DNA of 64,000 bases from Tardiphaga robiniae (GTDB taxonomy: Bacteria; Pseudomonadota; Alphaproteobacteria; Rhizobiales; Xanthobacteraceae), in assembly GCF_001618955.1 (NCBI RefSeq), contig NZ_LVYV01000023.1, forward strand, positions 186,001 to 250,000, written 5' to 3'. The notes under the pieces were generated by a model. That model was given only the letters and a program-made list of their open reading frames with translations. It ran no database searches and was not told the DNA's origin. Position numbers and translations under genes: made by a program. This document shows, one piece after another, positions 728-29,154 of the stretch (positions are counted from its first letter, which is position 1; every line of letters begins with the position of its first letter).

Positions 728-1201
728 TCAGGCCACGACGACGGTCAACGCATCGTCATTGGCCGCAATAATATTGTCGGAAAGCGGCTCCGGCCATTGC
801 ACCACCAGACGGCCGAACAGATCGTTGAGTTCTTCCCGTTCAATGGCGTCGTAAAAACAGGGCGTCGTTGCGCGCGCGATGAAGCTGTGCAGCAGGTGCG
901 CGGCGTCGTAGTCATAGACGATGTCGCCGGGAACGCTTCCCGGCTTGCGCAGCAGGAAGGTTCGCAGGCTTGTCAGGCGTGCCTGCCCGCCGTCTGTTGC
1001 GGCAAAGGAGAGCACGGCTGTCCGATGCGCAATGCGTGGGCCGTCCTGCATCCGGTCATACATCGGCAGCGCATTGGCGCTGATAACATCGGTGAGATCG
1101 CGGAAATCGTTTGAGACGTCTTCGGAATGCAGGGTGTTGCGGATCGCCATGACACCGACGGGATCGAAGCCGCGTGCTTGCAGAAGCTCGCCCAGTGTCA
1201 C
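728..1201 (-). CDS. Hypothetical protein co-transcribed with boxR
   Basis: A 157-residue protein starting at GTG; the start overlaps the boxR stop (GTGA), so the two are probably translated together. No signal peptide or membrane segment is visible. The N-terminus (LLQARGFDPVGVMAIRN) and the segment GRLVVQWPEPL near the C-terminus remind me of the domain preceding the nuclease domain in some larger GIY-YIG proteins. The nuclease part itself is absent, and this resemblance is from memory. The gene may encode a free-standing version of that domain or something unrelated. Its coupling to boxR suggests a role in sensing or in the benzoate regulon, but no function can be given. Confidence 0.6.
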   Translation of the reverse strand: MTLGELLQARGFDPVGVMAIRNTLHSEDVSNDFRDLTDVISANALPMYDRMQDGPRIAHRTAVLSFAATDGGQARLTSLRTFLLRKPGSVPGDIVYDYDAAHLLHSFIARATTPCFYDAIEREELNDLFGRLVVQWPEPLSDNIIAANDDALTVVVA

Positions 1202-2109
1202 GACGCAGCGCTTCTCAGCCCGAAAGCCTGGGCATTGGTGTTCAACACGCGCGACACCGCGCCGACCAGTTGCGCGGCAGCCTTGTCCTTGCTGAGGCCG
1301 GCCGTATCGACAATGGCGGATGCACGGGAATAGAGCGGTTCGCGGCTCAGCAGGATCGTGCGCAATTCCTGCATGGCGGAGCGGTCGTCGGCCATCGGGC
1401 GCAAGTCACCCTGGCGGCGGACGCGTGCCATATGTTCTTCGGGCTTGGCCTTGAGCCAGATCGTGTAGAACGATGACAGCACGCGATCGAAGGTCACGGG
1501 TTCCGAGACAATGCCGCCGCCGGTCGCAAGGACGATGGGCTCCTTGCGCCCCAGCAGGCCGTTCAGCGCGGCCTGTTCCATACGGCGAAAGCCCTCCTGT
1601 CCATAGAGCGCGATGATCTCGGCGACCGATAGTCCGTTGTGCTGCTCGATCTCCTTGTTGAGTTCGACGAAGCTCCAGCCGATCTTGTCCGCCAGCAATT
1701 TCCCGAGCGTCGATTTTCCGGCGCCGCGCAGCCCGATCAGGGCGATGCCGCTGAATGACATATAATTCTGGAACGGACCGTGTCCGCGTCCGGCGAGAAC
1801 ATCCTTGGCCTGGGCGATCTGGTTCGGTGTCGCGTTGCGAACGAGGTCGCGAATGACCGGCCAGTCCGTCGTGGGTTCGTCCGCCGGAATCAGATCTTCG
1901 AGATGGGCACCCATGGCGCCGGACACCCGGCGCAGCAGCACGATAGACACGTTGCCCTTGCCGCTTTCCAATTGCGCGATGTAGCGCTCCGAAATCCCGG
2001 ACACTTTTGCCAGCACCTTTCGCGACATGCCGCGCAGGCCGCGCATGGTGCGGACACGCTGGCCGAGCTGTTCAAGAAAGGCGGTTTCGGGATCGGCCTG
2101 GTCGGTCAT
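1198..2109 (-). CDS. boxR: BoxR/BzdR-type regulator: XRE helix-turn-helix fused to a shikimate-kinase-like domain
   Basis: A 303-residue regulator of aerobic benzoate degradation. The N-terminus carries an XRE-type helix-turn-helix (about residues 15-70, including SGISERYIAQLESGKG). A shikimate-kinase-like domain follows with an intact P-loop, GLRGAGKST. In the BzdR/BoxR family this domain binds benzoyl-CoA, which releases the repressor from DNA. I chose the ATG at 2109 because it begins the conserved part; an upstream TTG at 2169 would add 20 residues unlike the family. It is divergent from the benzoate-CoA ligase gene, with a palindrome between them that may be its operator. Confidence 0.92.
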   Translation of the reverse strand: MTDQADPETAFLEQLGQRVRTMRGLRGMSRKVLAKVSGISERYIAQLESGKGNVSIVLLRRVSGAMGAHLEDLIPADEPTTDWPVIRDLVRNATPNQIAQAKDVLAGRGHGPFQNYMSFSGIALIGLRGAGKSTLGKLLADKIGWSFVELNKEIEQHNGLSVAEIIALYGQEGFRRMEQAALNGLLGRKEPIVLATGGGIVSEPVTFDRVLSSFYTIWLKAKPEEHMARVRRQGDLRPMADDRSAMQELRTILLSREPLYSRASAIVDTAGLSKDKAAAQLVGAVSRVLNTNAQAFGLRSAAS

Positions 2110-2189
2110 GGGGCGTGCGTGCTCGCAGAGGATTTCAGGAAAGATAATTCCGGATGCGATTGACAGCAACCGGAGTTGGTGACTTTATA

Positions 2190-2203
2190 TGAATTATAAT
2201 TCA
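2190..2203. promoter_or_regulatory. Perfect 14-bp palindrome between boxR and the benzoate-CoA ligase gene
   Basis: TGAATTATAATTCA is a perfect inverted repeat in an A/T-rich patch. It contains TATAAT on both strands, so it could overlap the -10 elements of two divergent promoters. It is a reasonable candidate for BoxR autoregulation and control of the ligase gene. No good -35 hexamer was found at 17 bp spacing. Confidence 0.5.
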
Positions 2204-2267
2204 AAAAAGACGATAGGGAGAGCACCGTGAACAACGGTTGTGGAATCGCCCAAGGTGCAAACGCATC

Positions 2268-3818
2268 ATGAGTGGGCCGTCCAATTCTTACAATGCGGTG
2301 ACCTGGCTTCTCGACCGCAACATCGATGAGGGCCGTGGCAGCAAGCTCGCCTTCACCGATACCGTGACCGAACTGACCTATGGCGACCTGCAGACAAAAA
2401 GCTGCCAACTGGCCAATTTGCTGAAGCGGCTCGGCGTCCGGCGAGAAGAACGCGTCGCGATGATCATGCTCGACACGGTCGACTTTCCGGTGGCGTTCCT
2501 CGGCGCGATCCGGGCCGGCATCGTCCCGGTGCCGCTCAACACTCTGCTGACCTCGGAGCAATACGCCTATGTGCTGGCCGATTGCCGGGCGCGCGTGTTG
2601 TTCATTTCCGCGACGCTTTTGCCGGCAGTTGACGACATGCTTGGTCGTTTGCCGGATCTTGAGCATGTGATTGTGGTCGGTGGCGCTGGCAATGGCCGCA
2701 AGTGTCTGGCCGATGAAGTCAGGGATGAGAGCACAAGCTTCACGACGGTCGCGACCCATGCGGACGAGCCGGCCTTCTGGTTGTATTCATCCGGATCCAC
2801 CGGCATGCCGAAAGGCGTTCGCCATCTGCATGCCAGTCTGGAAGCAACGGCGACCACCTATGGCAAGCAGGTTCTCGGCATCCGCGAGGACGATGTCGGA
2901 CTGTCTGCGGCCAAATTGTTCTTCGCCTACGGTCTCGGCAACGCCATGACATTTCCCATGTCGGTTGGCGCCACGACGGTGCTCAATCCGGAGCGACCCA
3001 CGCCGGCCACCATATTCGGCCTGATGCGCCGATATCAGCCGAGCATCTTTTTCGGGGTGCCGACATTGTTCGCGGCGATGCTGAACGATGAGGGGTTCAA
3101 AACGGAAGTTCGCCTCCCGCGCCTGCGCATTTGTACCTCGGCCGGCGAGGCGCTTCCGGAGCCGGTGGGGAATGGCTGGAAGAGCCGCTTCGGCGTCGAT
3201 ATTCTCGATGGCGTTGGCTCAACCGAGCTGCTGCATATCTTTCTGTCGAATGCTCCCGGCGATATCAAATACGGCACGTCCGGTCGGCCGGTGCCAGGCT
3301 ATCGTGTGCGGCTCGTCGATGATGCGGGCCTCGATATCGCTGATGGAGAAATCGGCGAGTTGCTCGTCGATGCGCCGTCCGCCGGCGAGGGATACTGGAA
3401 TCAACGCAGCAAGAGTCGGCGCACCTTTGAAGGTCATTGGACGCGTACCGGCGACAAATATGTCCGCGATGCCGACGGGCGCTATACGTTCTGCGGACGT
3501 GCCGATGACATGTTCAAGGTGTCCGGCATCTGGGTCTCCCCGTTCGAGGTCGAGAGCGCGCTGATCGCACATCCCGCCGTATCCGAAGCGGCGGTCGTGC
3601 CGGAGGCCGACGCCGAGGGGCTGTTGAAGCCGAAGGCCTTCGTGGTGCTGAAACCGAATGCCGTGCTTGAGGGCCTGCGCGAATCCTTGAAGGATCACGT
3701 CAAGCAACGGATCGGTCCGTGGAAATATCCACGCTGGATCGAGGTTGTCGATTCCCTTCCCAAAACAGCCACCGGAAAAATCCAGCGCTACAAATTGCGC
3801 GATGGAGCGGCGGTCTGA
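2268..3818 (+). CDS. badA: Benzoate-CoA ligase
   Basis: Converts benzoate, ATP and CoA into benzoyl-CoA, the entry step of the box pathway, in the cytoplasm. The 516 residues fit the BadA/BclA family. The AMP-binding P-loop YSSGSTGMPKG lies in the first half, followed by the GVGSTELLHIFLS segment typical of benzoate/4-hydroxybenzoate ligases. TGD and the C-terminal catalytic lysine motif KTATGKIQRYKLR are also present. The ATG at 2268 starts the conserved region; a TTG at 2238 is less likely. The following hydrolase gene starts 9 bases downstream. Related ligases act on 4-hydroxybenzoate or 2-aminobenzoate, but position in a box operon supports benzoate. Confidence 0.93.
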   Translation: MSGPSNSYNAVTWLLDRNIDEGRGSKLAFTDTVTELTYGDLQTKSCQLANLLKRLGVRREERVAMIMLDTVDFPVAFLGAIRAGIVPVPLNTLLTSEQYAYVLADCRARVLFISATLLPAVDDMLGRLPDLEHVIVVGGAGNGRKCLADEVRDESTSFTTVATHADEPAFWLYSSGSTGMPKGVRHLHASLEATATTYGKQVLGIREDDVGLSAAKLFFAYGLGNAMTFPMSVGATTVLNPERPTPATIFGLMRRYQPSIFFGVPTLFAAMLNDEGFKTEVRLPRLRICTSAGEALPEPVGNGWKSRFGVDILDGVGSTELLHIFLSNAPGDIKYGTSGRPVPGYRVRLVDDAGLDIADGEIGELLVDAPSAGEGYWNQRSKSRRTFEGHWTRTGDKYVRDADGRYTFCGRADDMFKVSGIWVSPFEVESALIAHPAVSEAAVVPEADAEGLLKPKAFVVLKPNAVLEGLRESLKDHVKQRIGPWKYPRWIEVVDSLPKTATGKIQRYKLRDGAAV

Positions 3819-3827
3819 AACCGAGAG

Positions 3828-4658
3828 ATGGATGACAAGATGAGCGCATTGCAATCCGCAGGACGGCTGACCATCGGTGCGTCCGAACTCGAGTACCGCA
3901 TGATCGGTCCGCAACCCGACGCGGCGCCGACCATCGTGCTGCTGCATGAAGGGCTGGGCTCGGTCGCGCTGTGGGGCGACTTCCCGGACAAGCTTCAGGC
4001 AGCGACCGGGGCCGGCGTCTTCGTCTATTCGCGCGCCGGATATGGCGCGTCGACCCCGGTCGCGCTGCCGCGGCCGCTGGACTACATGCATATCGAAGCA
4101 CTTGAGGTGCTGCCGCAGTTGCTCGATGTCATCGGCTTTCGCCGCGGCTTGCTGGTCGGTCATTCCGATGGCGGATCCATCGCCGCAATCTATGCCGGCG
4201 GCATTCAGGATCATCGCATCCGCGGCGTCTCGATGATCGCGCCGCATTTCGTCGTTGAGGATATTTCCGTCACGTCGATCGCCGAAATCAAAACGAGTTA
4301 CGAGCAGGACGACCTGAAAGCGAAGCTCGCGCGCTGGCATGATGACGTCGACAACGCGTTCTATGGCTGGAACGGCGCATGGCTCGACCCGCAGTTCCGC
4401 GACTGGGATATTTCCGACTATCTCGCTTACGTGCGCGTGCCCGTGCAGATTTTGCAGGGCGCCGACGATCAGTACGGCACCATGAGGCAGATCGAGATCG
4501 CCGAGGTCGAATGCTATTGCCCGGTGGATGTCGAGATCATTCCCGGCGCTGCGCATTCGCCCCATCGTGAAGCCCCCGAGGCAACCTTGCGTGCCGTGGC
4601 GGATTTCGCCAATCGCCTGCTGCATTTTCACGGCGAGGGCGAATTACGCGCTGCGTAA
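3828..4658 (+). CDS. Alpha/beta hydrolase of the box operon
   Basis: A 276-residue alpha/beta-hydrolase-fold enzyme. The nucleophile elbow is GHSDGGS with Ser113, the oxyanion segment LLHEGLGS is near residue 40, and the C-terminal histidine is in GAAHSPHRE. There is no signal peptide. Alpha/beta hydrolases often sit in box clusters and have been suggested to act on CoA-thioester or lactone by-products; no specific substrate can be read from the sequence. It is tightly packed between the ligase and DUF309 genes, so probably co-transcribed. An alternative start is the ATG at 3840. Confidence 0.85.
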   Translation: MDDKMSALQSAGRLTIGASELEYRMIGPQPDAAPTIVLLHEGLGSVALWGDFPDKLQAATGAGVFVYSRAGYGASTPVALPRPLDYMHIEALEVLPQLLDVIGFRRGLLVGHSDGGSIAAIYAGGIQDHRIRGVSMIAPHFVVEDISVTSIAEIKTSYEQDDLKAKLARWHDDVDNAFYGWNGAWLDPQFRDWDISDYLAYVRVPVQILQGADDQYGTMRQIEIAEVECYCPVDVEIIPGAAHSPHREAPEATLRAVADFANRLLHFHGEGELRAA

Positions 4659-4670
4659 GCGGGTACGATC

Positions 4671-5165
4671 GTGACTGTCACTCCTTCTCTCGCGATGCCG
4701 CGCTGGCCATATCGGCTCGGCAAGCAGGTGAAGGCTGATCACGACACGCTCGCGCTGGCCAAGGCACTGGTCCCGATGCGCTATGCAGGCTTCGTCCCGG
4801 CGGGTGATCCGGCGTTGCGCTATGGGCTCGCGCTCAACGATGCCGGCTTCTTCTGGGAGGCTCACGAAATTCTCGAGGCTGTCTGGAAGGTCGCGCCGCA
4901 AAGAGGGCGCGACCGGATTCTGCTTCGCGCCTGTATTCAGGTTGCCAATGCCAATCTGAAACTCAGGCTGCAGCGGCCGCGCGCGGCATATCGATTGCTG
5001 CAGGAAGCACTGTCCGAACTCGATGAACTCGCCATGCGTCCGCTGGCGGGTGTTGCCGGAAGTTTTTCCGAGCACTTTCCGGTCGCAGTGCTGGCGTCTG
5101 TGATCGCCCATCAACTGGCAATCGATGAGGCCGAGCGCGGTCTGATTAATATCGTCCGGATATGA
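4671..5165 (+). CDS. DUF309 family protein
   Basis: A 164-residue cytoplasmic protein. The central segment FFWEAHEILEAVWKVAP is the characteristic DUF309 motif, with a histidine and two glutamates that could bind a metal. It is followed by helical sequence ending in a Leu-rich stretch. Start assigned to GTG 4671; ATG 4695 (MPRWPYRLGK) is the alternative. DUF309 genes recur in aerobic benzoate clusters, which suggests a role linked to this pathway, but the activity is unknown. Confidence 0.82.
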   Translation: MTVTPSLAMPRWPYRLGKQVKADHDTLALAKALVPMRYAGFVPAGDPALRYGLALNDAGFFWEAHEILEAVWKVAPQRGRDRILLRACIQVANANLKLRLQRPRAAYRLLQEALSELDELAMRPLAGVAGSFSEHFPVAVLASVIAHQLAIDEAERGLINIVRI

Positions 5166-5172
5166 AAGAAAA

Positions 5173-5251
5173 TGCATGTTTCCGTTCGATTCTTCTAGAC
5201 GGCTCCAATATCATGAATTATTGTGCATATAAGCAAGGCGCACGGTGCATA
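5173..5251. promoter_or_regulatory. Three TGCAT repeats upstream of boxC; possible BoxR sites
   Basis: TGCAT occurs at 5173, 5224 and 5246. The last two extend to TGCATA and are exactly 22 bp apart, about two helical turns. BzdR-family regulators are reported to bind TGCA-containing repeats, so this gap could hold a second, internal promoter for boxCBA. TATAAG at 5228-5233 is a possible -10. No convincing -35 was found. Confidence 0.4.
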
Positions 5252-5276
5252 AATCAAGACTGTCAAAGGGTGGAGC

Positions 5277-6965
5277 ATGGCCGCAGAGCAACGCGTTCTC
5301 TCGAACGGCGCCAAATTTATCGACTTCCAGACCGATCCGTCGCGCTACCGCCACTGGAAGCTCAGTGTCGATAACGACGTGGCAACGCTGACCATGGATG
5401 TCGATGAGAATGGCGGTCTGTTCGAGGGCTATCAGCTCAAACTGAATTCCTACGATCTTGGCGTCGATATCGAACTGGCGGATGCCGTGCAGCGGCTGCG
5501 CTTTGAATATCCCGAGGTCAAGGTCGTGCTGCTGCGCTCCGGCAAGAACCGCGTGTTCTGCGCTGGCGCCAATATCCGCATGCTGGCCGGCGCTACTCAC
5601 GCCCACAAGGTCAATTTTTGCAAATTCACCAACGAGACTCGCAACGGCTTTGAAGACTCGAGCGAAAATTCCGGCCAGCGCTTCATTTCAGTGATCAACG
5701 GTACCGCTGCGGGTGGTGGCTATGAACTGGCGCTGGCCACCGATCACATTATCATGGCGGACGATGGCTCGGCGGCGGTGGCGCTGCCGGAAGTGCCGTT
5801 GCTGGCGGTGCTGCCGGGCACTGGCGGTCTGACGCGTGTGGTCGACAAGCGCAAGGTGCGCCGCGATCACGCAGATTACTTCTGCACGATCGAGGAAGGC
5901 ATCAAAGGCAAGCGCGCGGTGGCGTGGCGGCTGGTCGATGACATCATCCCGAACAGCAAGCTTGAAGCCAAGGTCGCGGAACGGGCCAAAGAGTTTCTGG
6001 CGACGTCGAAACGTAGTGGCGCCGGCGATGGTCTCAAGTTGGCATCGCTGAATCGCAGATTCGACGACAGCGGCATCCGCTACGATATGGTCAATGTCGA
6101 TATCAATCGCGCAGAACGAATTGCTACCATCTCGATCAAAGCGCCCGAGGGCTCAGCACCGTCAGATATCGATGGAATGATCGCGCAGGGGGACAGTTTC
6201 TGGCCGCTGCAGGTGGCGCGCGAGCTGGACGATGCCATCCTGCATCTGCGGATCAATGAACTTGAGACCGCCATGCTGGTGTTCAAGTCGCATGGCGACG
6301 GCGCCAATGTGCTGACCCATGATGTCTTCCTCGAAACGCACAAGGTGCATTGGCTGATCAACGAGATCCGGCAATACTGGAAGCGGGTGCTGAAGCGTAT
6401 CGACGTGACGTCGCGCACGCTGGTGACACTGGTCGAGCCGGGCTCGTGCTTTGTCGGCACGCTGGCCGAACTCGTCTTCGCTGCGGACCGCTCCTACATG
6501 CTGGTCGGCCAAAAGCAGGGCGACAACCGCGCGCCGCCGGCCATTGTACTGAGCGCGATGAATTTCGGGCCTTACCCGATGAGCCACGGGCTGACGCGGC
6601 TACAGTCGCGCTTCCAGGCCGATCCGGAGGATGTAACCCGCGCGAAAGCGAGGATTGGTGAGCCGCTCGATGCGGAAACCGCCGAGCAGCTCGGGCTCGT
6701 CACCTTCGCGCTCGATGATATCGACTGGGATGACGAGGTGCGTGTGTTCTTCGAAGAACGCTGCAGCTTCTCACCCGATAGCCTCACAGGCATGGAAGCC
6801 AATCTGCGCTTTGTCGGGCCGGAGACGATGGAATCGAAAATCTTCTCGCGGCTGACGGCCTGGCAGAACTGGATCTTCCAGCGGCCCAATGCAGTTGGCG
6901 AGAACGGCGCGCTTGGACGTTACGGTACCGGCCAGAAGGCGCAGTTCGACATGACGCGCGTGTAG
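5277..6965 (+). CDS. boxC: Benzoyl-CoA-dihydrodiol lyase BoxC
   Basis: Opens the ring of 2,3-epoxybenzoyl-CoA by hydrolysis, releasing formate and 3,4-dehydroadipyl-CoA semialdehyde. The 562 residues match BoxC, a large crotonase-superfamily enzyme with two hydratase-like halves. The first half shows RVFCAGANIRMLAG and NGTAAGGGYELALATD, the oxyanion and CoA-binding segments. The second half has VEPGSCFVGTLAELVFAADR. ATG 5277 is preceded by AAAGGGTGGAGC. It is followed by boxB with a 104-base gap. Confidence 0.96.
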   Translation: MAAEQRVLSNGAKFIDFQTDPSRYRHWKLSVDNDVATLTMDVDENGGLFEGYQLKLNSYDLGVDIELADAVQRLRFEYPEVKVVLLRSGKNRVFCAGANIRMLAGATHAHKVNFCKFTNETRNGFEDSSENSGQRFISVINGTAAGGGYELALATDHIIMADDGSAAVALPEVPLLAVLPGTGGLTRVVDKRKVRRDHADYFCTIEEGIKGKRAVAWRLVDDIIPNSKLEAKVAERAKEFLATSKRSGAGDGLKLASLNRRFDDSGIRYDMVNVDINRAERIATISIKAPEGSAPSDIDGMIAQGDSFWPLQVARELDDAILHLRINELETAMLVFKSHGDGANVLTHDVFLETHKVHWLINEIRQYWKRVLKRIDVTSRTLVTLVEPGSCFVGTLAELVFAADRSYMLVGQKQGDNRAPPAIVLSAMNFGPYPMSHGLTRLQSRFQADPEDVTRAKARIGEPLDAETAEQLGLVTFALDDIDWDDEVRVFFEERCSFSPDSLTGMEANLRFVGPETMESKIFSRLTAWQNWIFQRPNAVGENGALGRYGTGQKAQFDMTRV

Positions 6966-26383: not shown

Positions 26384-28093
26384 ATGTCATCAGAATCTCA
26401 GGCATCATCCAGCGCCGAACTGCCGGTCTACGCGCCGCGGGCGGCGCTGCCGCGTCACGATCAGACTTTTCCCGTGCTGACGGCGGCGGAGATCGAGCGG
26501 ATGCGCCGCTTCGGTGAGATCCGGCATTACAAGGATGGCGATTGCCTGTTCGAGACCGGCAAGCTTGGTCCCGGCATGTTCGTGGTGCTATCCGGACATG
26601 TGACGATCACCCAGCGTGACGGTTTCGGCCGCATCACGCCGGTGGCCGATCAGTGCACCGGACAGTTCGTCGCCGAGATCGCGCAGCTGTCGGGCCGCGT
26701 CGCGCTGGTTGACGGTCATGCTGAAGGCGATGTCGAAACGCTGCTGATTCCGCCGGAACGGCTGCGCGCGCTGCTGATCGCGGAAGCGGATCTGGGCGAG
26801 CGCATCATGCGTGCGCTGATCCTGCGTCGGGTGAACCTCCTGCAGGGCAGCGCTGGCGGTCCGGCTTTCATCGGCGCAGCCAATTCCAGCGATGTCATTC
26901 GCCTGCAGGGCTTTCTCAGCCGCAACGGATATCCGCATCATCTGCTCGATCCGGCAACGGACAAGGACGCCGCCGATCTGATCGCGCGCTATACGCCGTC
27001 GCCGGAGGATCTGCCGCTGGTGGTGGTGGCTGACGGCACGGTGCTGCGCAATCCGTCATTCTCCGAACTCGCCCGCGCGATGGGCATGATCAGCCATATC
27101 GCCAAGGGCAAGACCTATGACGTTGCCATCGTCGGCAGCGGACCTGCGGGCCTGTCCACCGCGGTGTATGGCGCGTCCGAAGGTCTGTCGATTGCGGTGT
27201 GCGATGCCAAGTCGTTCGGCGGGCAGGCCGGTGCCAGCGCGCGGATCGAGAACTATCTCGGCTTTCCCACCGGCATCTCCGGCATGGCGCTCACGGCGCG
27301 TGCCTTCAACCAGGCGCAGAAATTCGGCGCCGATATCATGATTCCGGCCGCTGTGAAGTCGTTGGACTGCTCACGCAAGGACGGCTTGTTCGCGCTGGAG
27401 TTAGACGATGGCGATGTCATGCGTGCCAAGGCCATCGTGGTGGCATCGGGCGCGCGCTATCGACGGCCGGATATCGAGCGGCTCGCCGATTTCGAAGGTC
27501 GCGGCGTCTGGTACTGGGCATCTCCGATCGAGGCCCGGCTCTGCAGGGAGCAGGAAATCTACCTGGTCGGCGGTGGCAATTCGGCAGGTCAGGCGGCGGT
27601 GTTTCTCGCGAGCCAGGCCAACAAGGTGCATATGGTGATCCGCGGCGGGGGCCTCGGCGCCAGCATGTCGCGCTATCTGATCGAGCGCATCGAGGCGACA
27701 CCGAATATCGAGCTGGTCTTCAACACCGAAGTCGTGGCGCTGGAGGGGACGCAGGAGGCGGGGCTCGAACGGATCTGCACCCGTAGTCGGCTGTCCGGCG
27801 AGGAGTCCTGCGCTGACATCCGCAATCTGTTCCTGTTCGTCGGCGCCGATCCCGCCACCCAATGGCTGGCGGATTGCGGCGTCACCCTCGATCGTCATGG
27901 CTTCATCATCACCGGCATTCCCGCCAATGGCCGCAGCGTGCAGGCGCTGGAGACGTCGGTGTCCGGTGTCTTTGCGGTCGGTGATGTGCGCTCGGGTTCG
28001 GTGAAGCGTGTCGGTGGCGCGATCGGCGAGGGCGCCCAAGTGGTGGCGGCGCTGCATGGTTTTCTCGGCGATGCGGCCACACCGACCCTTTGA
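26384..28093 (+). CDS. Cyclic-nucleotide-binding domain fused to a thioredoxin-reductase-like flavoprotein
   Basis: A 569-residue three-part protein. Residues about 35-150 form a CAP_ED (cNMP-binding) domain, about 165-225 a thioredoxin-like segment, and about 245 to the end an FAD/NAD(P)H thioredoxin-reductase-like module with VGSGPAGLSTAVY and VGGGNSAGQAAV. At the place where thioredoxin reductases have CATC the sequence is Trp378-Ala-Ser-Pro381, so the redox disulfide is missing. From memory this is general in the cNMP-fused family. It may accept electrons differently or act as a redox sensor. The zinc-finger gene 20 bases downstream is probably co-transcribed. Confidence 0.88.
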   Translation: MSSESQASSSAELPVYAPRAALPRHDQTFPVLTAAEIERMRRFGEIRHYKDGDCLFETGKLGPGMFVVLSGHVTITQRDGFGRITPVADQCTGQFVAEIAQLSGRVALVDGHAEGDVETLLIPPERLRALLIAEADLGERIMRALILRRVNLLQGSAGGPAFIGAANSSDVIRLQGFLSRNGYPHHLLDPATDKDAADLIARYTPSPEDLPLVVVADGTVLRNPSFSELARAMGMISHIAKGKTYDVAIVGSGPAGLSTAVYGASEGLSIAVCDAKSFGGQAGASARIENYLGFPTGISGMALTARAFNQAQKFGADIMIPAAVKSLDCSRKDGLFALELDDGDVMRAKAIVVASGARYRRPDIERLADFEGRGVWYWASPIEARLCREQEIYLVGGGNSAGQAAVFLASQANKVHMVIRGGGLGASMSRYLIERIEATPNIELVFNTEVVALEGTQEAGLERICTRSRLSGEESCADIRNLFLFVGADPATQWLADCGVTLDRHGFIITGIPANGRSVQALETSVSGVFAVGDVRSGSVKRVGGAIGEGAQVVAALHGFLGDAATPTL

Positions 28094-28113
28094 GCTCATA
28101 ACCGGAGATCATC

Positions 28114-28422
28114 ATGCCCAAAGGCTGCACGCATATTTCCGGCATTCGCGATGTGACGCCCAGCGCACTCGGTTGCGAGGAATGCCTGAAGACGGGCAGC
28201 ATATGGCTACACTTGCGGATCTGCCGGACCTGCGGCCATGTCGGCTGTTGCGACGATTCCCCGAACAAGCACGCGACCAAGCATTTCCACGCCACGAAGC
28301 ATCCGATCATCGAAGGCTACGATCCGCCCGAAGGTTGGGGTTGGTGCTATGTCGACGAAGTCATGTTCGATTTGTCGGATCGAAAGACTCCGCACAACGG
28401 GCCGATTCCACGCTACTACTAA
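28114..28422 (+). CDS. UBP-type zinc finger protein
   Basis: A 102-residue free-standing zf-UBP domain. Ligand candidates are Cys5, His7, Cys21, Cys24, Cys37, Cys40, Cys45, His53, His57 and His63, matching the three-zinc UBP pattern. In eukaryotes this domain binds the free C-terminus of ubiquitin; bacteria with this gene lack ubiquitin, so the partner is unknown. It follows the cNMP/flavoprotein gene closely, which suggests joint work in a redox or signalling function. Confidence 0.88.
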   Translation: MPKGCTHISGIRDVTPSALGCEECLKTGSIWLHLRICRTCGHVGCCDDSPNKHATKHFHATKHPIIEGYDPPEGWGWCYVDEVMFDLSDRKTPHNGPIPRYY

Positions 28423-28647
28423 TCGCGTGAGTGCCATCCGGCCTCGTCGGGCTGCCGCTCGCGCATGACGCCGCGAACGCGGTGGCGTGTTTCAACGCCT
28501 GCATGGGCAGCGTCAACGAACGTAAAGCCATCATATCAGGACGCGGCGGCGAAAAATCAAACTTGAATGATGAGTATCAGCCAAAAACAGTTGGCGAGTT
28601 TCCGCAGTACACTGTAGCTTTTGAAAAGTTCTAAAGCGGGGGGCATC

Positions 28648-29154
28648 ATGGTTTTGGGAATGAGCTTGGCAACGTTCACGTTGCTTCATGTGGTGATCAG
28701 CCTGATCGGCATCGTCGCGGGCCTGGTCGCAATGGTCGGGTTGCTGAAGTCAAAGCCGCTGCCCGGCTGGACCGGTCTGTTTCTGCTGACGACGATCCTG
28801 ACCAGCGTGACCGGCTTCTTCTTCCCGGTCGAAAAACTGTTGCCGTCGCATGTCATCGGCATCATTTCGCTGGTGCTGCTGGCGGTCGCCTGTCTGGCAC
28901 TGTACGGCCAGAAGCTGGCGGGGCCATGGCGCTGGATTTATGTGCTGACTGCGATGATCTCGCTTTATCTCAATGTGTTCGTGCTGGTGATCCAGAGCTT
29001 CCTGAAGGTCCCGCCGCTTCATGCGCTGGCACCGAGCGTGCCGCCGAGTGAGCCGCCTTTTGCGATCGTTCAGGGCATCGTGCTGGTGTTCTTCGTCGTC
29101 ACTACCTTCCTTGCGATCAGGAAGTTTCGCCCGATGCCCGGCGGCTTCGCCTGA
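28648..29154 (+). CDS. Small integral membrane protein
   Basis: A 168-residue protein with about five hydrophobic segments, including FTLLHVVISLIGIVAGLVAM near the start and IVLVFFVVTTFLAI near the end. Short loops include a Pro-rich one (PSVPPSEPPF). It has no motif that I recognise. AAGCGGGGGG precedes ATG 28648. It is alone between the zinc finger gene and a convergent TetR gene. Confidence 0.75.
   Translation: MVLGMSLATFTLLHVVISLIGIVAGLVAMVGLLKSKPLPGWTGLFLLTTILTSVTGFFFPVEKLLPSHVIGIISLVLLAVACLALYGQKLAGPWRWIYVLTAMISLYLNVFVLVIQSFLKVPPLHALAPSVPPSEPPFAIVQGIVLVFFVVTTFLAIRKFRPMPGGFA

Follow-up and report, generated by a model that had tools for sequence, protein, structure and literature searches.

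A cNMP-domain flavoprotein without CxxC and its zf-UBP neighbour in Tardiphaga robiniae and related genomes: a putative redox signalling module

Burroughs, Iyer and Aravind reportedly proposed in 2011 (Mol Biosyst 7:2261) that bacterial ZF-UBP proteins take part in a cyclic nucleotide-dependent redox signaling system. A gene pair of this kind was analyzed here in a stretch of 64,000 nucleotides from Tardiphaga robiniae (contig NZ_LVYV01000023.1, positions 186,001 to 250,000; hereafter the window), where the gene of a flavoprotein with a cyclic-nucleotide-type (cNMP) domain and a thioredoxin reductase (TrxR)-like core is followed by the gene of a zf-UBP protein. As in the reported proposal, zf-UBP genes were found to be coupled to cNMP-TrxR genes in the genome draws and loci of this study; given that proposal, the window locus joins an already predicted kind, and the main idea of the pairing has probably been put forward before. 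Public annotation of a Rhodococcus plasmid also places a 'UBP-type zinc finger domain-containing protein' beside a 'cyclic nucleotide-binding domain-containing thioredoxin-disulfide reductase'. No title or abstract start describing the pair, or recognizable as an experimental study of it, was found in the literature, most papers having been judged by these parts. The quantified pairing, a glutaredoxin-like domain without CxxC, a kinase/receiver variant, a fusion to KefC-like antiporters, and an occurrence in chaperone clusters may be new.

In TrxR, a swing of 67 degrees gives NADPH, and then the disulfide, access to the flavin, while ferredoxin/flavodoxin:NADP+ oxidoreductases (FNRs) of the TrxR fold have no CxxC and rotate for a different reason (PMC8564101). 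Full activity of the K+/H+ antiporter KefC depends on KefF, a separate protein that binds NADH (PMC11150392).

With slightly better than even confidence, we regard the flavoprotein and the zf-UBP protein as one module, composed of an NAD(P)H-flavin oxidoreductase that would be signal-gated and work without a dithiol, and of a zinc-finger adaptor. The N-terminal cNMP-type domain, responding to a cyclic nucleotide or another ligand, would control hydride transfer from NAD(P)H to FAD within a TrxR-fold core that has lost both the dithiol and the NADPH motif HRRxxxR. The reduced flavin would act on, or reshape, the complex formed with the zf-UBP protein; the latter may serve as a docking adaptor bringing the flavoenzyme to a client, and not as a reader of ubiquitin. 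We infer NAD(P)H turnover, gating by the sensor domain, and binding between the two proteins. An initial annotation, made from the sequence alone, had proposed a redox-linked signalling pair of unknown purpose; a redox-linked signalling role remains the most economical reading, but the antiporter fusions, the variant with cNMP kinase and receiver, and the chaperone clusters found in other genomes help to confine the possible purposes.

Architecture and active site of the two proteins

The flavoprotein is encoded by an open reading frame (ORF) of 569 amino acids (aa) at 26384..28093 on the + strand, to which all features of the pair given here belong, and its domains were assigned using Pfam and a structure model. 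In agreement with the initial annotation, residues 47-131 (26522..26776) matched cNMP_binding (PF00027, 41.8 bits, cut-off 27.5), and residues 245-550 (27116..28033) form the TrxR-like FAD/NAD(P)H core (Pyr_redox_2, 113.3 bits, cut-off 26.1). However, a glutaredoxin-like domain without CxxC at about residues 153-238 (26840..27097), supported by the model fold and a PDB structure match, had been overlooked. Folded alone from 40 sequences, this domain displayed the order strand-helix-strand-helix-strand-strand-helix with a predicted local distance difference test (pLDDT) value of 84.7; its best PDB match was the mycoredoxin Mrx1 (2lqo, E 3.9e-4, TMq 0.70), followed by glutaredoxins and NrdH-like proteins, with only Mrx1 passing E 0.001. 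According to the model, the stretch between the cNMP_binding and Pyr_redox_2 hits is a domain and not a linker, and the flavoprotein holds two redox-type folds, with CxxC in neither.

To collect relatives, a BLAST limit of E < 1e-40 against the window protein was applied, by which ordinary TrxRs were left out, and 133 distinct flavoproteins were obtained from 174 ORFs by keeping only matches at E <= 1e-40 that begin no later than residue 260 and extend at least to residue 500. When aligned with a paralog of the same genome carrying the sequence CAT-C, the active-site position reads Y-W378-A379-S380-P381-I. The replacement of the redox disulfide by Trp-Ala-Ser-Pro (W378-A-S-P, 27515..27526), as initially annotated, was thereby confirmed, and CxxC occurred in 0/133 distinct relatives, window included, both at the active-site segment and in the glutaredoxin-like domain. 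Because ordinary thioredoxin reduction depends on CxxC, its absence supports the earlier expectation that the protein would not reduce thioredoxin in the usual way, and the name thioredoxin-disulfide reductase, given to some members in public annotation, is very probably wrong, since none of the 133 sequences examined possesses the motif.

The motif HRRxxxR for the 2'-phosphate of NADPH was likewise found in 0/133 relatives, R420 alone being kept (133/133). The cofactor-site residues G279, Q281, N290, N399, and R420 were identical in 133/133 relatives, and this invariance argues for a functioning FAD/NAD(P)H site. It also bears on a doubtful, though quite conceivable, alternative, namely that the flavoprotein is a pseudo-enzyme sensor, which would bind FAD and NAD(P)H, read the NAD(P)H/NAD(P)+ ratio together with the N-terminal signal, and signal its state to the zf-UBP protein, electrons not flowing steadily. 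The absence of CxxC from both redox domains and of HRRxxxR is compatible with such a sensor, as are the sensor inputs in cis or via a receiver and a partner that is a zinc finger and no obvious redox protein, but the invariance of all five cofactor-site positions seemingly goes beyond a purely structural need.

A further candidate for redox chemistry is Cys387 (27542..27544), an isolated cysteine of the helix that follows the former CxxC. It was found in 114/133 relatives and, if a thiol takes part at all, is the most likely residue. If the flavoprotein were a non-standard thiol reductase, Cys387 or zinc-finger cysteines would relay electrons, in some lineages to a neighbouring thioredoxin. 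We consider this unlikely: although Cys46, an extra cysteine of the zf-UBP protein, was present in 130/130 zf-UBP sequences, Cys387 is replaced in 19/133 relatives by T, V, Y, L, I, F or M, and the paralog that does bear CxxC has Tyr at the equivalent position within that helix.

The model of the whole flavoprotein (pLDDT 88.2, predicted template modelling score 0.87) resembled the flavin-reducing state of TrxR (5mh4, TMt 0.94, root-mean-square deviation (rmsd) 1.9 Å, and 1.8 Å over 303 residues in a second comparison) and differed from the flavin-oxidizing state of the same TrxR (5mjk, TMt 0.63, rmsd 7.7 Å, and 7.5 Å over 302 residues in the second comparison). Resemblance to the flavin-reducing state would be expected if no disulfide had to swing in, and the predicted conformation offers weak evidence for an enzyme that accepts hydride from NAD(P)H and dispenses with a disulfide.

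A match to the structure of Bacillus cereus FNR2 (Z 29.8, rmsd 3.1 over 307 residues) brings in another explanation, in which the protein would be a TrxR-type ferredoxin/flavodoxin:NADP+ oxidoreductase that has gained a sensor domain, the lack of CxxC being a trait shared with FNRs of this fold (PMC8564101). Sequence comparison points elsewhere, the best PDB E values being 7.9e-38 for TrxR and 3.2e-33 for AhpF against 7.5e-18 for FNR. In addition, no gene named ferredoxin or flavodoxin was present in the 25 annotated neighbourhoods opened, among which the single (2Fe-2S)-binding protein adjoins a molybdopterin enzyme, and the FNR function could be served instead by a paralog of the same genome, so that this explanation appears highly improbable. 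The T. robiniae genome contains single copies of the flavoprotein and zf-UBP genes and two distant TrxR-like paralogs: the one bearing CAT-C lies on contig C1, and the other, on contig C34 (92224-93141, L042), lacks CxxC at the aligned position and is possibly a TrxR-type ferredoxin:NADP+ oxidoreductase.

The zf-UBP protein, the second member of the proposed adaptor module, is encoded by an ORF of 102 aa (28114..28422), which begins 20 bp downstream of the flavoprotein ORF and whose zf-UBP domain (residues 21-84) passes Pfam PF02148 with 49.6 bits (cut-off 22.7), as the initial annotation had recognized. The 20-bp gap and a Shine-Dalgarno-like GGAG (28104..28107), located 6 bp ahead of the second ATG, suggest that both genes likely form a single operon. 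A solved relative over residues 1-101 is PDB 2ida (E 3.1e-64), probably from Rhodopseudomonas palustris and deposited as 'Hypothetical protein' with no function attached. Among 130 distinct zf-UBP sequences obtained from 217 ORFs, C21, C24, C37, C40, C45, H53, H57, and H63 were present in 130/130, H7 in 129/130, C78 in 126/130, and C5 and D81 in 122/130 each; by analogy with HDAC6, these twelve positions presumably make up three zinc sites. By its sequence, the product is identifiable as a zinc protein of zf-UBP fold.

Since this is the fold family of ubiquitin-binding zf-UBP domains, the protein might read a ubiquitin-like tail or the C-terminal carboxylate of another protein. The alignment speaks strongly against it. 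Asp47 (28252..28254) aligns without gap with the Arg of human USP16 that we take to be the grip on the ubiquitin C-terminal carboxylate, and position 47 is occupied by Asp in 129/130 and by Glu in 1/130 sequences. The Arg of USP49 lands one residue on, after a gap, and USP20 and USP33 have Glu. Because Asp47 replaces the USP16 Arg, binding of a ubiquitin tail is unlikely, and tail reading in the wider sense is scarcely credible. The initial annotation had pointed to the zinc finger in an organism without ubiquitin; the protein need not be a reader of ubiquitin out of place, as it belongs to a bacterial family with a solved relative and a conserved Asp at this position.

Conservation of the pair across genomes

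To determine the prevalence of the pair, three partly overlapping draws (G000, G257, G292, and G323 being common) were taken from the lineage of the window, comprising 190 genomes of its class, 199 of its order, and 398 of its phylum, together with 111 genomes from the class of G407, a Deinococcales metagenome-assembled genome (MAG). The zf-UBP protein was sought by means of the window protein (class and order draws) or PF02148 (phylum and class of G407). The E limit for the flavoprotein was 1e-60 for the class and order draws and for the search of 28 genomes described below, 1e-55 for the phylum, and 1e-50 for the class of G407, and the flavoprotein counts of the four draws refer to only part of the first-look candidates scored per genome. 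As a control, PF02148 matched 2/14 well-known genomes, namely those of Deinobacterium chartae and Methanosarcina acetivorans.

The zf-UBP protein was detected in 6/190 class, 15/199 order, and 16/398 phylum genomes, and the flavoprotein in 12/190, 33/199, and 45/398, respectively. Genomes with zf-UBP also contained the flavoprotein in 6/6, 14/15, and 15/16 cases. In total, 30 out of 32 distinct zf-UBP genomes of the phylum possessed the flavoprotein, 23 of the 32 within 1 kb, while G345 (order draw) and G740 (phylum draw) had none at the limits used; the pair, on whose conservation the initial annotation had made its proposal depend, is thus conserved. Within the class of G407, the flavoprotein core, the only part spanned by the matches (query starts 156-174), was found in 14 genomes and zf-UBP in 6, all of which had the core. 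Fisher p-values for co-occurrence were 1.5e-8 (class), 1.0e-11 (order), 8.8e-15 (phylum), and 1.3e-6 (class of G407), and are too small because the genomes are related and the draws partly share genomes. Chance adjacency was rejected, since zf-UBP and the flavoprotein co-occur in all four draws.

Furthermore, 80 named zf-UBP loci were inspected, representing the best 80 of 587 and including two from one strain and some from genomes of the draws (e.g., L108, G354). The flavoprotein was located in the fetched flank of 52 of these best 80, the zf-UBP gene lying downstream on the same strand in 38, upstream in 6, and on the opposite strand in 8 of them, with a spacing of less than 500 bp in 49/52 (stop-to-stop ORFs). 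For the other 28 loci, the flavoprotein was encoded elsewhere in 25 of the 28 genomes; the exceptions G401, G405, and G412 (loci L131, L148, and L159), all of them titled as MAGs, had no flavoprotein at the limits used. On a contig titled Actinobacteria bacterium (L121:4960-8303), a proteobacterial-like pair was observed whose zf-UBP protein is 74% identical to that of the window, representing either mis-binning or transfer.

A conserved third gene was sought by all-against-all clustering of the ORFs in the 80 loci. The six clusters occurring in at least 20 loci (78, 62, 60, 52, 25, and 21) consisted mostly of ORFs inside the ORFs of the pair and represent the pair itself or shadow ORFs, so that a conserved third gene was rejected on these six clusters, and the handful of smaller clusters that were named belong to common families, e.g., ABC transporters and SDRs.

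Input domains, candidate clients and genomic setting

The residues E98 and R105, which we take to be the phosphate-cassette Glu and Arg of the cNMP domain, were present in 111/133 and 86/133 relatives, some of which have no cNMP domain, and in 87 and 64, respectively, of the 91 alignment rows that are occupied at column 97. The residue following the cassette Arg is Val, where CRP has Ser or Thr.

In some relatives, a receiver domain takes the place of the cNMP domain, and the gene adjoins that of a histidine kinase with a cNMP domain of its own. This arrangement was found in Caballeronia NK8 (L173, with two such kinases), in Streptomyces fungicidicus p1 (L234, followed by a zf-UBP gene), in Deinococcus aetherius (L235), and in G860 (L263) and G873 (L266) of the class of G407; the Asp/Thr/Lys of the receiver and the H-box of the kinase (HELNNP or HEMNNP) were recognized by eye in the sequences. 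Two loci (L169, L178) feature a core without any Pfam-detected N-terminal domain. Judged by these motifs, one kind of signal would reach one core by two routes, in cis or through kinase and receiver, and these two input routes to the same core are the strongest indication in this analysis for a regulatory function of the N-terminal domain.

A candidate client emerged from gene fusions. In a Phycisphaerae MAG (L149), a Na_H_Exchanger-TrkA_N antiporter ends in a C-terminal zf-UBP domain, and the same fusion (Na_H_Exchanger+TrkA_N+zf-UBP) was detected in Deinococcus ficus (L164) and, within the class of G407, in five genomes (L259-L263). For the fusion in G860, the KefC model scored best, with 246.9 of 752 bits, far under the cut-off. 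In this genome (L263:1168-6397), the antiporter-zf-UBP fusion (1168-3294), the receiver-core (3285-5009), and the cNMP-kinase (4958-6397; all stop-to-stop ORFs) follow each other on one strand. A free zf-UBP ORF precedes the receiver-core and the cNMP-kinase in G873 (L266), the antiporter fusion being on another contig. By analogy with KefC and KefF, a KefC-like K+/H+ antiporter is proposed as the clearest client in relatives, to which the zf-UBP part might bring the flavoenzyme.

Stress protection may be the setting, as indicated by chaperone/thioredoxin clusters in some plasmids. In total, 25 annotated plasmid regions were opened, which were hand-picked, not random, and in which related plasmids recur. 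Four Rhodococcus plasmids (L176, L232, L236, and L163) share the order (dnaK-grpE-)dnaJ-cbpM-clpB-trxA-zf-UBP-flavoprotein, where in one region dnaK-grpE would fall outside the stretch opened, and three of the four have DUF1931 after the flavoprotein. This cluster looks like an actinobacterial counterpart of the transmissible locus of stress tolerance. The Streptomyces NBC_01001 plasmid carries the same chaperone cluster with no annotated zf-UBP, and on plasmid pI of Paraburkholderia dioscoreae (L169:472-8252), PsiE, a flavoprotein core without Pfam-detected sensor, zf-UBP, a Clp ATPase, and Hsp20 are encoded. In the four Rhodococcus plasmids, trxA immediately precedes the zf-UBP gene, an order that would suit the thiol reductase considered above, but no more than five of the 25 regions, all on actinobacterial plasmids, showed trxA as a neighbour.

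Chaperone genes thus adjoin the pair or the flavoprotein in 6/25 regions (four Rhodococcus, Streptomyces NBC_01001, Paraburkholderia dioscoreae), and an antiporter, a kinase, or the plain pair was present in 6/25 further ones. Nothing telling was found in the other 13/25, originating from Variovorax, Nostoc, Oscillatoria, Streptomyces NBC_01558, Arthrobacter, Hymenobacter, Paraburkholderia pBN1, Cupriavidus, Deinococcus aquaticus, Sphingomonas, Caballeronia p2, Microvirga, and Streptomyces NBC_01176. Because the regions were hand-picked and related plasmids repeat, the chaperone association is a lead and not a rate. Taken together, the links elsewhere to antiporters and to chaperone/thioredoxin clusters suggest a role in stress protection.

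Several observations weigh against the gated oxidoreductase and its adaptor as one module. The zf-UBP protein is missing in 30/45 flavoprotein genomes of the phylum draw; the flavoprotein is the broader part and zf-UBP an addition, and the core can therefore work without it. Many acceptors are possible for TrxR folds lacking CxxC, Cys387 is absent from the 19 relatives mentioned above, and the conformational argument is itself weak, being drawn from a prediction. As for the client, the antiporter fusion and the core stand in direct tandem only in G860; they are about 1.3 kb apart in G765, with another long ORF between them, and on different contigs in G798, G806, and G873, and the sole zf-UBP protein of the T. 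robiniae genome is unfused. Neither a chaperone nor a thioredoxin nor an antiporter was found among the eight window neighbours scanned (22-33 kb).

These eight neighbours comprise genes for AMP-binding, SDR, Lrp/AsnC, TetR, SDR, and EPSP-synthase-family proteins and two without Pfam match, and clpK, hsp20, trx, and kefB of the transmissible locus of stress tolerance were not among them. Downstream of the pair, after 198 bp, a membrane-like protein of 177 aa (28621-29151) is encoded, for which neither Pfam nor NCBIfam gave a match at E 1e-5.

Only tentatively, and with much less confidence than for the module itself, a widespread system is conceivable in which a cyclic-nucleotide-type signal, in cis or through histidine kinase and receiver, gates a dithiol-free flavoenzyme, and zf-UBP plugs this enzyme into clients, chiefly KefC-like antiporters and the heat-shock/disaggregase machinery. 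The zf-UBP fold, best known as a ubiquitin reader, is in any case linked here with a flavoenzyme; in other phyla, its links extend to an antiporter and chaperone clusters. If the wider proposal were true, the control of KefC-like antiporters would represent a second, unrelated solution of the KefF kind, and bacterial zf-UBP would be a redox-control adaptor, a role predating or paralleling the use of the fold on ubiquitin. The ligand, the electron acceptor, the partner, and the client are each directly assayable.

Comparison with described flavoenzymes and with KefC/KefF

TrxR-like FNRs share with the flavoprotein the TrxR fold without CxxC, and three extra hinge residues are named as a feature of theirs (PMC8564101). 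In contrast to FNRs, the protein of this study possesses signal-input and glutaredoxin-like domains and a zf-UBP partner, and its sequence match to them is weaker. With low-Mr TrxR, it has the two-domain FAD/NAD(P)H fold in common (Z 36.6, rmsd 1.8 over 305 residues to 3cty), whereas the CxxC and HRRxxxR of that family are both absent here, and its score for TIGR01292 (low-Mr thioredoxin reductase) amounts to 212.1 bits, below the curated cut-off of 343.45. The score for TIGR03140 (AhpF), 149.4 bits, likewise remains below the curated cut-off of 502.9, and AhpF features N-terminal tandem Trx folds with CxxC, where a single glutaredoxin-like domain without CxxC is found in the present protein.

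KefF has a flavodoxin-like fold unrelated to the TrxR fold. KefC is a K+/H+ antiporter with an RCK domain that works with a separate NADH-binding protein, KefF, which was purified with FMN (PMC11150392); in the arrangement proposed here, a TrxR-fold enzyme together with a zf-UBP tail would stand in its place.

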